DNA of 64,000 nt from assembly GCF_000372745.1 (NCBI RefSeq), contig NZ_KB889662.1, positions 62,001 to 126,000 on the forward strand, given 5' to 3'. Made by a program: the position numbers and the translations under genes. Each line of letters opens with the position of its first letter. The stretch's first letter is position 1. This document shows, piece by piece, positions 52,257-59,319 of the stretch. This stretch comes from Embleya scabrispora DSM 41855. GTDB lineage: Bacteria; Actinomycetota; Actinomycetes; Streptomycetales; Streptomycetaceae. The notes below the pieces were generated by a model. It saw nothing but the letters and a program-made list of their open reading frames with translations. It made no database searches and was not told the DNA's origin.

Positions 52257-53660
52257 TCAGGCCAACTCGCCGATGAATCGACCCAGCTGGGTCAGGTTGC
52301 GGCACTCGATCATGGAGATCTGCCGGCCGTACACACCGGCGATCGAGTCACCGGTGTCCCAGTCCCGCTCCGGCTCGGGATTGAGCCACCACGCGTGGCG
52401 GGCCGGCGTCACCATCGCCGCGAGGGCCGTCAGGGCCGGGTCCTGGTAGTTGTTCCGCGCGTCGCCCAGAATCAGCAGCGAGGACTTCGGGCCGATCACG
52501 TCGCCATAGCGCCGCACGAAGACGTTGAACGCGTGTCCGTAGTCGCTGTGTCCGCTCAACCGCACCAGATTCGCCTCGGCGGTCAACCGGCGCATCGCCT
52601 CGGTGACGTCGCCACCCGGCTGCTCGAAGAATCGGGTCACCTCGTCCACCGTGTCGATGAACGCGAACGCCCGTACCCGGGCGAACTGTTCACGCAGCGC
52701 GTAGGCGAGCATCAGGGTGAAGTGGGCGAAGGAGGAGACCGACTCGCTCGCGTCGCACAACACCACCAGTTCGGGCTTGTGCGGCCGGCGCGGACGGTGA
52801 TGGGTGGTCAGGGGCACGCCACCCGTGGACAACGACGCGCGGACCGTCCGGCGAAAGTCCAGGCGACCGTGCCGGCCCGCCCGTTGCCGGATGGTCAGCC
52901 GGGTGGCCAGGCGCTGCGCGAGCGGTTGGATCTCCCGGCGCAGCGCGATCAGATCGGTCCGGCTCGCGCGCAGGATGTCCAGATTCTCCACGGCCGGTTT
53001 GACCGCGGTCTCGGCGACCCGCTCGATGCCGCGTTCCTCGGCGAGCCGGCGACGCACGTCGGAGAGGATGTGCTCGTTCAGCCGGTCCACCCGGGCCTGG
53101 ATCATCCGCCGCGCGTTGCGTTCGGCCACCCCGCCCGGGAGTCGCCCGCCGAGGACCGCGCGCAGCAGACCCGCCATCAGCGTCCGCGGGTCGAGCGCGC
53201 GACCGACCATGTGCGCGGACCACGAGGCTCCCGAGGGCCCGTCGAAGGCACCGAACCGCCCGACCGCCTCACGCGCCAACCGGCGCAGGGCGATGTCGTC
53301 CTCACCGAGCAGGAGTTCCCGCAACCGATCGCGGAAGACCTCGGCGTCGGCGGCGTCCGCACTCGCCCCGCCCTCGGCCGCGCCGTCCGGCCGCTCGCCG
53401 GTCGCCGCTCCGACCGGGTCGGCGTCGGCCCGCGCCGCCGCGCCCACCGGGAACCACAGCTCGAACAGCGTGTCAAAGACCGCCCGGTGAGTGTGCCGCT
53501 TGCACAGCGACGCCGCGTAGGCGGCCCGCAGTGTCTCCCGGTCCGTGAGGTCGAGCACGGTCAACGCACGGGCCGCGTCCAGTCCTTCGGCGAGCGACAC
53601 CGGCAATCCGCCGTGTCGCAGCGCCCGGACGAAGCCGACGTGGCGGTCGAGGAGGGACAT
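52257..53660 (-). CDS. CoxE-like VWA domain protein
   Basis: A 467-residue protein of the CoxE/VWA group. The N-terminal helical part (LRHGGLPVSLAEGLDAARAL) is a family hallmark; the C-terminal half carries a von Willebrand A domain with MIDAS motif in ELVVLCDASESVSSFAHFTL and later LILGDARNNY. Such proteins act with MoxR AAA+ ATPases as metal-dependent chaperones or activators, e.g. of molybdo-enzymes. It starts 5 bp after the stop of the MoxR gene, so the two are coupled. Cytoplasmic. Confidence 0.9.
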   Translation of the reverse strand: MSLLDRHVGFVRALRHGGLPVSLAEGLDAARALTVLDLTDRETLRAAYAASLCKRHTHRAVFDTLFELWFPVGAAARADADPVGAATGERPDGAAEGGASADAADAEVFRDRLRELLLGEDDIALRRLAREAVGRFGAFDGPSGASWSAHMVGRALDPRTLMAGLLRAVLGGRLPGGVAERNARRMIQARVDRLNEHILSDVRRRLAEERGIERVAETAVKPAVENLDILRASRTDLIALRREIQPLAQRLATRLTIRQRAGRHGRLDFRRTVRASLSTGGVPLTTHHRPRRPHKPELVVLCDASESVSSFAHFTLMLAYALREQFARVRAFAFIDTVDEVTRFFEQPGGDVTEAMRRLTAEANLVRLSGHSDYGHAFNVFVRRYGDVIGPKSSLLILGDARNNYQDPALTALAAMVTPARHAWWLNPEPERDWDTGDSIAGVYGRQISMIECRNLTQLGRFIGELA

Positions 53661-53665
53661 CGGCG

Positions 53666-54532
53666 TCAGCCGCCGATACCGGGCAGGCCGAGTTCCTTCG
53701 CGGCCCGCGTGTGGTCGGAGGCGTGCTTGAGCACGACACCGAGCGTGCTCGCTATCGTTTCCTCGTCCAACTCCTCGGCCGCCAGCGCGATCAGCGTCCG
53801 GGCCCAGTCCAGGGTCTCGGCGATCGAGGGCGCCTTCTTGAGCTCCAGGGCCCGCAGCGACGCGACGGTGCGCACCACCTGCTCGGCGAGCTGCTCGCGG
53901 ATTCCCGGTACCCGGGTGAGCACGATGTCCCGCTCACGCTCCGGCGTCGGATAGTCGATGTACAGGTACAGACAGCGCCGCTTCAGCGCCTCGCTCAGTT
54001 CGCGCGTCGCATTCGAGGTGAGCACCACGAACGGGCGCCGCGAGGCGGTGATCGTGCCCAACTCGGGGATGGTGACCTGGAAGTCGGAGAGCACCTCCAG
54101 CAGCAACCCCTCGACCTCGACATCCGCCTTGTCCGTCTCGTCGATCAGCAGCACGGTCGGCTCGTCGCGGCGGATCGCGGTGAGCAACGGCCGGGCCAAC
54201 AGGAACTCCTCGGCGAAGATCCCGGCCCGCGCCTCGTCCCACCCGTCCACGCCCGCCTGGATGCGCAGCAGTTGCTTGCGGTAGTCCCACTCGTACAGCG
54301 CGCGCGACTCGTCCAGGCCCTCGTAGCACTGCAACCGGATCAGCTCGGCGGACGCGGCCGCCGCGACCGCCTTGGCCAGCTCGGTCTTGCCGACTCCCGC
54401 CGGGCCCTCGATCAACAGCGGCTTGCCCAGCGCGTCGGCCAGGAAGACGGCGGTCGCGATGCCGGGATCGGTCAGGTAGTCGACGGCTCCGAGCCGGGTG
54501 CGGGCGTCCTCGGGCGAGGCGAACATCGTCAT
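53666..54532 (-). CDS. MoxR-type AAA+ ATPase
   Basis: A 288-residue AAA+ ATPase: Walker A LLIEGPAGVGKTELAKAVAA, Walker B PTVLLIDETDKADVEVEGLL, sensor 1 FVVLTSNATRELSEALKRRC, with the arginine-finger region downstream. MoxR proteins form hexamers that remodel partners presented by VWA proteins. ATG at 54532 with GAGGAG upstream. First gene of the MoxR-VWA unit, and divergent from three AIM24-family genes. Confidence 0.93.
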   Translation of the reverse strand: MTMFASPEDARTRLGAVDYLTDPGIATAVFLADALGKPLLIEGPAGVGKTELAKAVAAAASAELIRLQCYEGLDESRALYEWDYRKQLLRIQAGVDGWDEARAGIFAEEFLLARPLLTAIRRDEPTVLLIDETDKADVEVEGLLLEVLSDFQVTIPELGTITASRRPFVVLTSNATRELSEALKRRCLYLYIDYPTPERERDIVLTRVPGIREQLAEQVVRTVASLRALELKKAPSIAETLDWARTLIALAAEELDEETIASTLGVVLKHASDHTRAAKELGLPGIGG

Positions 54533-54722
54533 GGTGGTGCACTCCTCGCGGGGCGATCTGCGGCGGGGCGGCGCGCCGGGTTGCCGCCGGCCGCCTCTCA
54601 AGCTAGCAAGAGGCGCGCGTGGCGTATGCAACGGCGTGGCTGCCCCGGCGCTGGTAAAACCCCGGCAAGATGAGGGGTTTCCACCCTCCGGCGACCGGCC
54701 TCGCGCTGCTAGCTTCCCGATC

Positions 54723-55361
54723 GTGGCGACCTTTGTGATGCATGGCACGCGAGTTCTCGCGGTGGGCATGAACGGAGAGGCGGTCAAGGCCCGAAACGGG
54801 ACGATGATCGCCTATGACGGACGGATGTCCTTCAAACGACTGTCCGGCGGGGGTGAGGGGCTGCGCGGAATGGTGACCCGCCGGCTCACGGGTGAGGGCA
54901 TGACCCTCATGGAGGTGAGCGGTGAGGGCACCTGCTGGTTCGCCGACCGGGCCACCGAGATCAATCTCGTCCAGCTGACCGGCGAGACGCTGCACGTGGA
55001 GTCGAGCAACCTGCTCGCCGTCGACCAGAGTCTGCGCACCGGCACCGAGTTCACCGGCCTGAGCGGCGCGACCAGCGGCCAGGGCCTGTTCACCACGACC
55101 GTATCGGGCCAGGGCACGGTCGCGGTCACCTCCGACGGGCCGGCCATCGTGCTGCGGGTGTCGCAGGGCGAGCCACTGTCGGTGGACCCGGGGGCGTATG
55201 TCGCGCACACCGGGCAGCTGCGCAAGGAGTTCGTCAAGGACGTCAATTGGCGCACCTTCATCGGCGAGGGGTCCGGCGAGAGCGTGCAGTTGCGCTTCCA
55301 GGGCGACGGGCTGGTCTACGTACAGCCCACCGAGCGGCAGACCATCGGGGGGCAGACGTGA
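54723..55361 (+). CDS. AIM24-family protein, copy 1
   Basis: A 212-residue AIM24/TraT-fold beta protein: KARNGTMIAYDGRMSFKRLS, LRGMVTRRLTGEGMTLMEVS, CWFADRATEINLVQLTGETL and GQGLFTTTVSGQGTVAVTSD. The family is named for yeast mitochondrial AIM24; bacterial copies are of unknown function. GTG at 54723 (ATFVMHGTRVLAV) is chosen by comparison with the N-termini I remember for Streptomyces homologues. There is no ribosome site, so it may be leaderless. First of three overlapping AIM24 genes. Confidence 0.85.
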   Translation: MATFVMHGTRVLAVGMNGEAVKARNGTMIAYDGRMSFKRLSGGGEGLRGMVTRRLTGEGMTLMEVSGEGTCWFADRATEINLVQLTGETLHVESSNLLAVDQSLRTGTEFTGLSGATSGQGLFTTTVSGQGTVAVTSDGPAIVLRVSQGEPLSVDPGAYVAHTGQLRKEFVKDVNWRTFIGEGSGESVQLRFQGDGLVYVQPTERQTIGGQT

Positions 55362-56005
55362 CGTTCGACCAGGTCAACTCCAAGATGATCGAGGCCACCG
55401 TACGACCGGGGCAGACGCTGTACTGCCTGCGCGGGGCGATGCTGGCCTACCGCGGCGAGGTGTCCTTCACCCCGACCACCACGGGGGCGCAGGGCGTCGG
55501 CGGGATGATCGGGCGGCGGCTGGCGGGCGAGTCGGTGCCGCTGATGAAGGCCGAGGGTGACGGCACGGTGATGTTCGGTCACGCGGGCCGACACGTGCAC
55601 CTGATCCAGATCACCGGCGACACGCTGCACGTCGAGGCGGACCGGCTGCTCGTGTTCGAGGACTCGTTGCAGCAGGGCACCATGTTCATGGGCGCACAGG
55701 GCGGCGTCCGCGGGATGATCCGCGGCCAGGTGACCGGCCAGGGACTGTTCACCACGACGCTGACCGGCCACGGCTGGTGCGGGGTGCTCGCGCACGGCGG
55801 CGTGATCGAGCTGCCGGTCCAGCCGGGTCGCTCGATCCACGTCGACCCGCAGGCGTACGTGGCGCATCGGGGCCACATCGAAAACCGGATCGGCGCCAAC
55901 GTGGGTTGGCGCGACGTGATCGGGCGCGGTTCCGGCGAGGCGTTCCAGCTGGAGCTGTCCGGCACCGGCACGGTCTACGTCCAGGCGAGCGAGGAGAAGC
56001 TGTGA
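55358..56005 (+). CDS. AIM24-family protein, copy 2
   Basis: A 215-residue AIM24 protein: NSKMIEATVRPGQTLYCLRG, MLAYRGEVSFTPTTTGAQGV, RRLAGESVPLMKAEGDGTVM and GQGLFTTTLTGHGWCGVLAH. GTG at 55358 overlaps the stop of copy 1 by 4 bp (GTGA), implying coupled translation. Copies 1 and 2 share the internal pattern Gly-x-Val-Thr-Gly-Gln-Gly-Leu-Phe but have different N-terminal lobes. Confidence 0.9.
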   Translation: MTFDQVNSKMIEATVRPGQTLYCLRGAMLAYRGEVSFTPTTTGAQGVGGMIGRRLAGESVPLMKAEGDGTVMFGHAGRHVHLIQITGDTLHVEADRLLVFEDSLQQGTMFMGAQGGVRGMIRGQVTGQGLFTTTLTGHGWCGVLAHGGVIELPVQPGRSIHVDPQAYVAHRGHIENRIGANVGWRDVIGRGSGEAFQLELSGTGTVYVQASEEKL

Positions 56006-56775
56006 CCGCCCCCGGTTCCGGCCCTGCGGTGTTCGACGCGCGAACGCTGCCGCAGGACGACAACGTCAATCCGTACACCTTCTGTGTGGCCCTCGACGGC
56101 GAGTGGTTCGTGCAGAAGGGCAAGATGATCGCCTACTACGGGCGGATCAAGTTCGAGGCGCTGGGCGTGGGCGCGCTCGACCGGCTGGTCACCGCGAACT
56201 TCAACTCGCCGCTGTACATCCAGGACTGGATCGTCGCCCAGGGCAAGGGGCAGTTGCTGCTCGCCGACCGCGGCTTCGACGTCAACTCGTTCGACCTGGA
56301 GCAGGGCAACCTGACCATCCGGGCCGCCAATCTGCTCGCCTTCCAGCCCGGCCTGGACCTGAAGCAGTCGATCGTTCCCGGGTTCGTCACGCTGATCGGC
56401 ACCGGCAAGTTCGTCGCCGCCTCCAACGGCGCGGTGCACTTCGTCGAGCCGCCGATCCGGGTGGACCCCGAGGCGCTGCTCGGCTGGGCGGACTGTCCGA
56501 CGCCGTGCCACCACTTCGACACCAAGTACATGCGCGGCGCGCTGGGCATGGCGCGCCGGCTGACCGGCCTCGGCGGCGCGTCCGGCGAGGAGCACCAGTA
56601 CGACTTCGTCGGGGCCGGCACGGTGCTGATGCAGTCCTCGGAGATCTCGATCGACCCGAACCTGATCCCGGCCCAGGCCGCGGCGGCCAACCAGCCGCCC
56701 GGTGGGCAGCAGGGCGTGCCGGGGATTCCCGGACTGCCGAACATCCCGGGTCGGTTGGGACGTCTGCTGCAATAG
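56002..56775 (+). CDS. AIM24-family protein, copy 3 with Pro/Gly tail
   Basis: A 257-residue AIM24 protein and the most diverged copy: VALDGEWFVQKGKMIAYYGR, IVAQGKGQLLLADRGFDVNS, NLTIRAANLLAFQPGLDLKQ and FDTKYMRGALGMARRLTGLG. The C-terminus adds a Pro/Gly-rich tail (PPGGQQGVPGIPGLPNIPGR) absent in the other two. GTG at 56002 overlaps the stop of copy 2 by 4 bp. A hairpin follows 47 bp downstream. Confidence 0.88.
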   Translation: MTAPGSGPAVFDARTLPQDDNVNPYTFCVALDGEWFVQKGKMIAYYGRIKFEALGVGALDRLVTANFNSPLYIQDWIVAQGKGQLLLADRGFDVNSFDLEQGNLTIRAANLLAFQPGLDLKQSIVPGFVTLIGTGKFVAASNGAVHFVEPPIRVDPEALLGWADCPTPCHHFDTKYMRGALGMARRLTGLGGASGEEHQYDFVGAGTVLMQSSEISIDPNLIPAQAAAANQPPGGQQGVPGIPGLPNIPGRLGRLLQ

Positions 56776-58104: not shown

Positions 58105-59319
58105 ATGACGCTCGAGATCCCGCGCATCATCTCCGTGGACGACCACGTGGTGGAGCCCCCGGACCTGTGGACCTCGCGACTGCCCGCCAAGTACAAGGAC
58201 CGCGGCCCGCGCGTGGTGCGCGACAAGGCGAAGTTCAACTTCATCGGCGGCGTGTTCTCCTACGAGCGCGGCGTCGAGGACGGCGAGTGGTGCGACTGGT
58301 GGCTGTACGACGACCTGGTCTACCCGTTCCCCAAGCTCTCGGCCGCGGTCGGCTTCGACACGCTGGACGTGACGCCGGTCACCTTCGACGACATCCGGCC
58401 GGGTGCGTGGATCCAGTCCGAGCGGCTCAAGGACATGGACGCCAACCACGTCGACGCGTCGCTGTGCTTCCCGAACATCCTGCCGCGTTTCTGTGGCCAG
58501 GCGTTCTACGAGCGTGAGGACAAGGAACTCGCGCTGCTGTGCGTCCAGGCGTACAACGACTGGATGATCGACGAGTGGTGCGCGGGCGACGGCAAGGGCC
58601 GCCTGCTGCCGATGACGATCATCCCGCTGTGGGACGCGAACCTGGCCGCCGCGGAGGTGCGCCGGTGCGCGGCGAAGGGTTCGTTCGCGGTCGCCTTCTC
58701 GGAGAACCCGGTCCCGCTGGGCCTGCCGTCGGTGCACGACAAGGACCGCTTCTGGGACCCGTTCTTCCGGGCGTGCGAGGAGACGAACACGATCGTCTGC
58801 ATGCACATCGGGTCGTCCTCGAAGATGCCGTCCACGTCGCCGGACGCGCCGTTCATCGTCTCCTCGGTGCTGACCTTCCAAAACGCCATGGGCTCGATGG
58901 TCGACTACATCTTCTCCGGCGTCTTCGACCGCTTCCCGAAGATGAAGATCGCCTACGCCGAGGGCCAGGTCGGCTGGATGCCGTACGTGATGGAGCGCGC
59001 GGACAAGCTGTGGGAGGAGCGCGACGACAACGCGTTCGGCTCGTCGCTGACCCAAAAGCCCAGCTCGTACATCCAGGACCGGATCTACGGCTGCATCTTC
59101 GACGACGAGATCGGCCTGCGCAACCGGGACGTGATCGGCATCGACCAGATCTGCTTCGAGGTCGACTACCCGCACGCGGACTCGACCTTCCCGAACACCC
59201 ACAAGGTCGCCTTCGACATCGCCACGAAGGCGGGCCTGACCCAGGCCGAGTGCGACAAGCTCTTCCGCACCAACGCCATCAAGGCCTTCGGCCTGGAACG
59301 CTTCGGAATCACGAAGTAA
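58105..59319 (+). CDS. Amidohydrolase-2 family enzyme
   Basis: A 404-residue TIM-barrel metal-dependent hydrolase/decarboxylase. It begins LEIPRIISVDDHVVEPPDLW, where DDHVVEPP carries the N-terminal metal-binding site variant, and continues with MDANHVDASLCFPNILPRFC, CMHIGSSSKMP, FPKMKIAYAEGQVGWMPYVM and FEVDYPHADSTFPNT (a metal-binding Asp/His segment). These proteins include gamma-resorcylate and o-pyrocatechuate decarboxylases and are frequent in actinobacterial steroid/aromatic clusters. AAGGAG precedes the ATG. Divergent from LysR; convergent with an SDR that may act on the same pathway. Confidence 0.9.
   Translation: MTLEIPRIISVDDHVVEPPDLWTSRLPAKYKDRGPRVVRDKAKFNFIGGVFSYERGVEDGEWCDWWLYDDLVYPFPKLSAAVGFDTLDVTPVTFDDIRPGAWIQSERLKDMDANHVDASLCFPNILPRFCGQAFYEREDKELALLCVQAYNDWMIDEWCAGDGKGRLLPMTIIPLWDANLAAAEVRRCAAKGSFAVAFSENPVPLGLPSVHDKDRFWDPFFRACEETNTIVCMHIGSSSKMPSTSPDAPFIVSSVLTFQNAMGSMVDYIFSGVFDRFPKMKIAYAEGQVGWMPYVMERADKLWEERDDNAFGSSLTQKPSSYIQDRIYGCIFDDEIGLRNRDVIGIDQICFEVDYPHADSTFPNTHKVAFDIATKAGLTQAECDKLFRTNAIKAFGLERFGITK

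Follow-up and report, generated by a model that had tools for sequence, protein, structure and literature searches.

How is a MoxR-VWA gene pair related to three AIM24-family genes from which it diverges? The question is raised by a window of 64,000 nucleotides (the whole stretch of DNA that was analysed) from Embleya scabrispora DSM 41855, in which the genes of a MoxR-type AAA+ ATPase and a CoxE-like VWA protein lie head to head with an AIM24 trio, designated here copies a, b and c. The original prediction took the AIM24 proteins as candidate clients of the MoxR-VWA pair and saw in the three copies a possible hetero-oligomer of fixed stoichiometry. Comparison with relatives makes it probable that two independent conserved modules stand side by side, that the trio would form an obligate hetero-oligomer, and that the adjacency is a genus-level rearrangement in Embleya. 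The source genome has 11.4 Mb. Among named relatives, Embleya hyalina and 'Streptomyces' sp. SID3343 stand closest to it, with Yinghuangia as the sister genus of the Embleya lineage.

The loci read comprised 40 with copy c, 20 with MoxR-VWA that span many families, and a set of 80 named MoxR-VWA loci, the genes being called with a codon-usage script. MoxR or VWA genes were present near the trio in the four Embleya-lineage genomes (4/4) and at none of the 36 trio loci from other genera, while AIM24 genes were found near MoxR-VWA at two of the 80 named loci, those of E. hyalina (L167) and SID3343 (L168). By adjacency, a conserved MoxR-VWA-AIM24 system was not found beyond one genus. In a sample of 395 genomes of the class, taking E below 1e-80 as a strong copy c, 56 carried copy c, 173 the VWA protein and 28 both, versus 24.5 expected (P=0.19, computed without regard to shared ancestry), that is, co-occurrence is at chance level. 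Within the Streptomyces clade (the large Streptomycetaceae genus g9), only 14 of the 38 genomes with copy c have the VWA gene, and Yinghuangia has MoxR-VWA and lacks the trio. Both are found in 27 genomes outside Embleya; the shortest distances listed there are 84-130 kb (G290, G403, G426 and G126), and the remaining pairs with listed positions are more than 1.5 Mb apart or on different contigs; VWA positions are unlisted for G354, where the 19 kb around copy c hold no VWA gene, and for G363, whose contig has just 6.3 kb. Outside the Embleya lineage no relative keeps the two units together, which argues against MoxR-VWA acting on AIM24 clients. Separation in most relatives had been named beforehand as the observation that would tell against this proposal, and it is what the survey of gene neighbourhoods found.

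Each module has neighbourhoods of its own. In several families the pair is located in the order rplU-rpmA-obg-proB-proA-[MoxR-VWA]-nadD-rsfS-phosphomutase, in Yinghuangia it follows an RlaP-like gene, and in a Frankiaceae metagenome-assembled genome (G060, L038:574-7122) it is tightly spaced after genes for a GlcD-like protein and an Fe-S/CCG-domain protein, possibly a metallo-flavoenzyme client in that lineage. The neighbours of the pair thus differ between genomes, and none of them accompanies it consistently as a client gene would. The trio of other Streptomycetaceae is positioned between two MarR genes, often behind a DUF2127 gene, in a region with scy-like, mce, thiolase and meaB genes that reaches methylmalonyl-CoA mutase ('scy-like' and 'mce' being our own reading of the sequences). 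In Embleya (G000, G002) and Yinghuangia (G020) that region is kept without the trio, and the two MarR genes are adjacent. Hence the trio has moved either in or near Embleya or, in the opposite direction, in the rest of the family; whichever the direction, its adjacency to MoxR-VWA is local.

The trio itself behaves as a unit. The order a-b-c was unvarying in all 40 trio loci, from many genera and several families, with tight spacing and no loss of a single copy across the loci examined, which were selected through copy c, so that trios that had lost c would be missed. In 39 loci the order was read from the gene caller, and in the remaining one (G011) AIM24-a was recovered by Pfam search at 5954681-5955274. 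Copy c is present in 38 of 39 sampled genomes of the Streptomyces clade and also in several other actinobacterial families. In the tree each copy is monophyletic across families (support 96/92 for a, 100/99 for b and 100/100 for c); the three copies are three ancient orthologous groups. That the trio stays together supports one complex. The hetero-oligomer of fixed stoichiometry, originally suggested by differences in N-terminal lobes and a Pro/Gly tail, is strengthened by a trio never found split and by the age of its members, the complex itself being what these comparisons suggest. The tail is indeed present on copy c of the window, but it is not a family-wide feature: its length varies within Streptomycetaceae, some relatives have in its place an N-terminus rich in Pro and Gln, and the tail of other families is Gln-rich. 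A second AIM24 triplet was noticed elsewhere in the genome of the window (L008:6467-9738, on G000:C111), its first gene being a TerD-AIM24 fusion, and many Streptomycetaceae likewise have AIM24 triplets at separate loci; the second triplet fits the three-subunit theme.

We infer complex formation, a membrane role and the absence of functional coupling between the modules. The products of a, b and c would assemble into one obligate hetero-oligomer, whose a:b:c stoichiometry the translationally coupled overlapping genes would help to hold. The complex might act as a peripheral membrane scaffold, like mitochondrial Aim24, and MoxR-VWA would be an independent chaperone pair brought beside it by a genus-level rearrangement. 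Yeast Aim24 has no predicted transmembrane segment yet is firmly bound to the inner membrane, belongs to a complex of roughly 400 kDa and stabilises the mitochondrial contact site and cristae organising system (MICOS), and TRAP-like proteins form oligomers according to the authors of that study (PMC3975624).

Several observations weigh against this explanation. All four Embleya-lineage genomes retain the adjacency, with VWA identity of 85-87%, and one of them (L034) does so although the genes beyond VWA differ; the persistence leaves room for a lineage-specific functional link. Membrane association of the trio, besides, would follow only from its likeness to yeast Aim24. Were the link that of a dedicated chaperone, MoxR-VWA would assemble or remodel the trio after expression of both from a shared divergent promoter region. 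The head-to-head layout over 187 bp in the window and its retention throughout the lineage agree with this proposal, as do two papers (PMC9976466, PMC3893208) by which such pairs frequently have a dedicated protein complex as their target. It becomes very improbable with an adjacency missing from every trio locus of other genera and nearly all named MoxR-VWA loci, with most trio-bearing Streptomyces-clade genomes devoid of this VWA gene, with a Yinghuangia pair that has no trio, and with a Band_7/slipin gene that occupies the gap between the units in E. hyalina (G001) and in G002, half of the four Embleya genomes. The slipin gene is also central to a different proposal, which we regard as quite unlikely, namely an Embleya-specific recruitment in which an AIM24 membrane-scaffold unit was joined by a pre-existing MoxR-VWA chaperone of general function and, in part of the species, by a Band-7 slipin. 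In G001 and G002 the gene is the first of the AIM24 operon and lies some 22 bp ahead of copy a, and the trio-linked slipins branch separately from the housekeeping slipin (a separate housekeeping slipin was not found in G002 by the same search). Nevertheless, the gene is missing from this gap in the window and in G003, slipin matches were not beside the AIM24 trios of other genera among the relatives searched, and neutral synteny explains the adjacency equally well because the LysR and amidohydrolase neighbours are also kept. A related view, that the trio is an actinobacterial three-subunit, membrane-organising counterpart of Aim24 which in Embleya gained MoxR-VWA and, in some species, the slipin, has in our judgement a slim chance.

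The unity of the trio can be questioned as well. The three copies might be a mere tandem duplication, with redundant or separate functions and not one complex; paralogs in tandem are a common occurrence, and copy c has diverged strongly (41.6 bits against Pfam). Set against this are clades spanning several families, which make the copies ancient, the fixed order, the tight spacing and the absence of single losses among loci selected through copy c, and we hold such a duplication to be unlikely, though deserving some weight. An obligate hetero-oligomer encoded by an independent module accordingly stays the preferred reading of the trio.

Membership of the copies in the AIM24 family was assessed by profile and by structure model. 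Copies a and b scored 130.8 and 126.7 bits against PF01987 and, like copy c, exceeded the gathering score of 25.7; against TIGR00266 the equivalog cut-off of 96.6 was missed (53.3 and 34.9 bits) and copy c had no match. Structure models (AlphaFold2) cover copies b and c, with predicted local distance difference test (pLDDT) values of 79.8 and 73.7, and both match 1PG6 and 1YOX with probability 1.00, these being the sole confident Protein Data Bank matches; a literature search on the two entries gave nothing useful. Because its model matches both structures confidently, copy c, weak by sequence, is predicted to retain the AIM24 fold. Copy b contains a threefold internal repeat (residues 1-73, 76-145 and 146-211) whose segments of about 65-73 residues align in register, with hhalign scores of 14.2, 18.4 and 12.5 versus column-shuffled maxima of 11.0, 9.8 and 10.0; for copies a and c this test yielded a weak repeat signal or none. 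Each repeat unit has one Gly-rich, low-confidence loop (e.g. GAQGVGGMIGRRLAGE), and the loops might form the end that faces a membrane or a partner. The diverged core of copy c carries the signature GWADCPSPxxHxD at residues 161-173 (window 56482-56520), of which C165, H171 and D173 do not vary among 20 diverse copies (alignment A3) and could be metal ligands. A CxxxCHH metal site in the same protein was weakened as a candidate, as C169 and H170 vary in distant relatives.

Compared with the known AIM24 family (PF01987/TIGR00266; yeast Aim24; 1PG6, 1YOX), the window proteins are alike in passing the PF01987 cut-off and differ in forming a conserved three-paralog unit with a diverged core in copy c. 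AIM24 genes have been linked to TerD in Ter stress systems (Anantharaman et al. 2012, cited by PMC5822837). The genome of the window shares this trait through its TerD fusion, whereas no TerD gene is near the window trio, whose copies fall in clades separate from the TerD-linked ones.

The MoxR-VWA pair is an actinobacterial CoxD/CoxE-like chaperone pair, the client of which is probably other than AIM24. Pfam assigns its members to AAA_5/AAA and to VWA_CoxE (E=2.4e-45), the latter with an additional sub-threshold Phasin match, and of the 80 named loci 78 have an AAA+ ATPase gene as partner of the VWA gene. The NCBIfam profiles MadB and MadC matched below their curated cut-offs (319.1 bits against 475 for MoxR, 153.6 against 600 for VWA), and the literature on MadB/MadC offered nothing useful. 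In alignment A2 of the VWA protein D303, S305, S307, T315 and D400 are invariant, the DASES stretch (D303, S305, S307) being a seemingly intact metal ion-dependent adhesion site (MIDAS) motif; a close solved relative of the protein was not found. Rv2425c/Rv2426c, which we take to be the M. tuberculosis names, served as a lead only, and the literature on them gave nothing useful. CoxD/CoxE and NorQ/NorD-type pairs resemble the window pair in the tandem of MoxR AAA+ and CoxE-type VWA genes, but genes for CO dehydrogenase, NO reductase or Rubisco were not seen among the annotated neighbours in the loci read. The MoxR-vWA ternary conflict systems (PMC7159879) share the MoxR plus VWA core; unlike them, the window VWA protein has no C-terminal effector domains (VWA_CoxE only by Pfam), and among its neighbours no gene for VMAP or iSTAND was recognised, although no dedicated VMAP/iSTAND profile was run. 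Anti-phage function and phage origin were set aside, since PADLOC and PHROGs returned generic AAA matches only.

The coordinates are collected in the table. All five open reading frames of the original prediction are present and their families were confirmed by Pfam, and the 4-bp GTGA overlaps that join the AIM24 genes were located at 55358-55361 and 56002-56005. The start of AIM24-a is most likely GTG 54723 and not ATG 54738, because VA[QT]FR-type N-termini such as GTGGCGCAGTTTCGA are kept in relatives. Hence the shared divergent region, the layout of which was correctly described, measures 187 bp instead of 190 bp.

Features of the MoxR-VWA/AIM24 locus (window positions) and of the slipin genes in related genomes
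Feature	Position	Strand	Size	Remarks
VWA_CoxE gene	52257-53660	-	467 aa	ends with VWA domain
MoxR-type AAA+ ATPase gene	53666-54535	-	~289 aa	5 bp upstream of VWA gene
Divergent intergenic region	54536-54722		187 bp	between MoxR and AIM24-a
Inverted repeat AAAACCCC-N10-GGGGTTT	54656-54680		25 bp	upstream of AIM24-a; pattern search, four Embleya-lineage genomes
TAGCTT, possible -10 element	54710-54715	+		7 nt before GTG start; leaderless-like; by eye
AIM24 copy a	54723-55361	+	212 aa	PF01987 E=6.9e-38; start from conserved N-termini
AIM24 copy b	55358-56005	+	215 aa	PF01987 E=1.3e-36
AIM24 copy c	56002-56775	+	257 aa	divergent; PF01987 E=1.5e-10
Amidohydro_2 gene	58105-59319			beyond a LysR gene
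Band_7/slipin gene, E. hyalina G001	L032:8282-9340		352 aa	proline-rich tail
Band_7/slipin gene, G002	L033:8038-9132		364 aa	proline-rich tail

Within the divergent region the inverted repeat is kept in all four Embleya-lineage genomes (G000-G003) and is otherwise nearly unique in each; it falls within the slipin reading frame in the genomes having that gene, and RNA folding at this place is unremarkable (z=-1.48). As a regulon operator it was rejected, the single other one-mismatch site in the genome of the window reading as a GC hairpin. TAGCTT could be a -10 element: TA(G/A)CTT occurs at the matching place across Embleya and TACCTT-type boxes in other genera, while a consensus scan found no sigma-70 pair. 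A relic of the slipin C-terminus in the window is at most possible, as the block that is conserved lies over the probable promoter of copy a and would be retained in any case; G003 has a longer but GC-rich match. Further downstream, the Amidohydro_2 gene makes doubtful the statement that no metallo-enzyme is nearby, the family consisting mostly of metal-dependent hydrolases. Its protein is 99% identical across Embleya-lineage genomes, where the adjoining trio, MoxR, VWA and LysR proteins reach 83-96%, an unusually strong conservation relative to its neighbours.

All in all, two modules of known kinds have come to lie side by side in an unremarkable way, and the AIM24 unit among them is of modest interest. 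On comparative sequence evidence the chaperone-client relation is not supported, whereas the hetero-oligomer is plausible and better supported than could be known when it was proposed. A tempting but misleading guilt-by-association clue on the clients of MoxR-VWA is thereby removed, and a cleaner target remains in the AIM24 a-b-c unit, intact at every locus read. Since the trio is present in genetically tractable Streptomyces-type bacteria, the function of AIM24 proteins in bacteria would be directly testable there.

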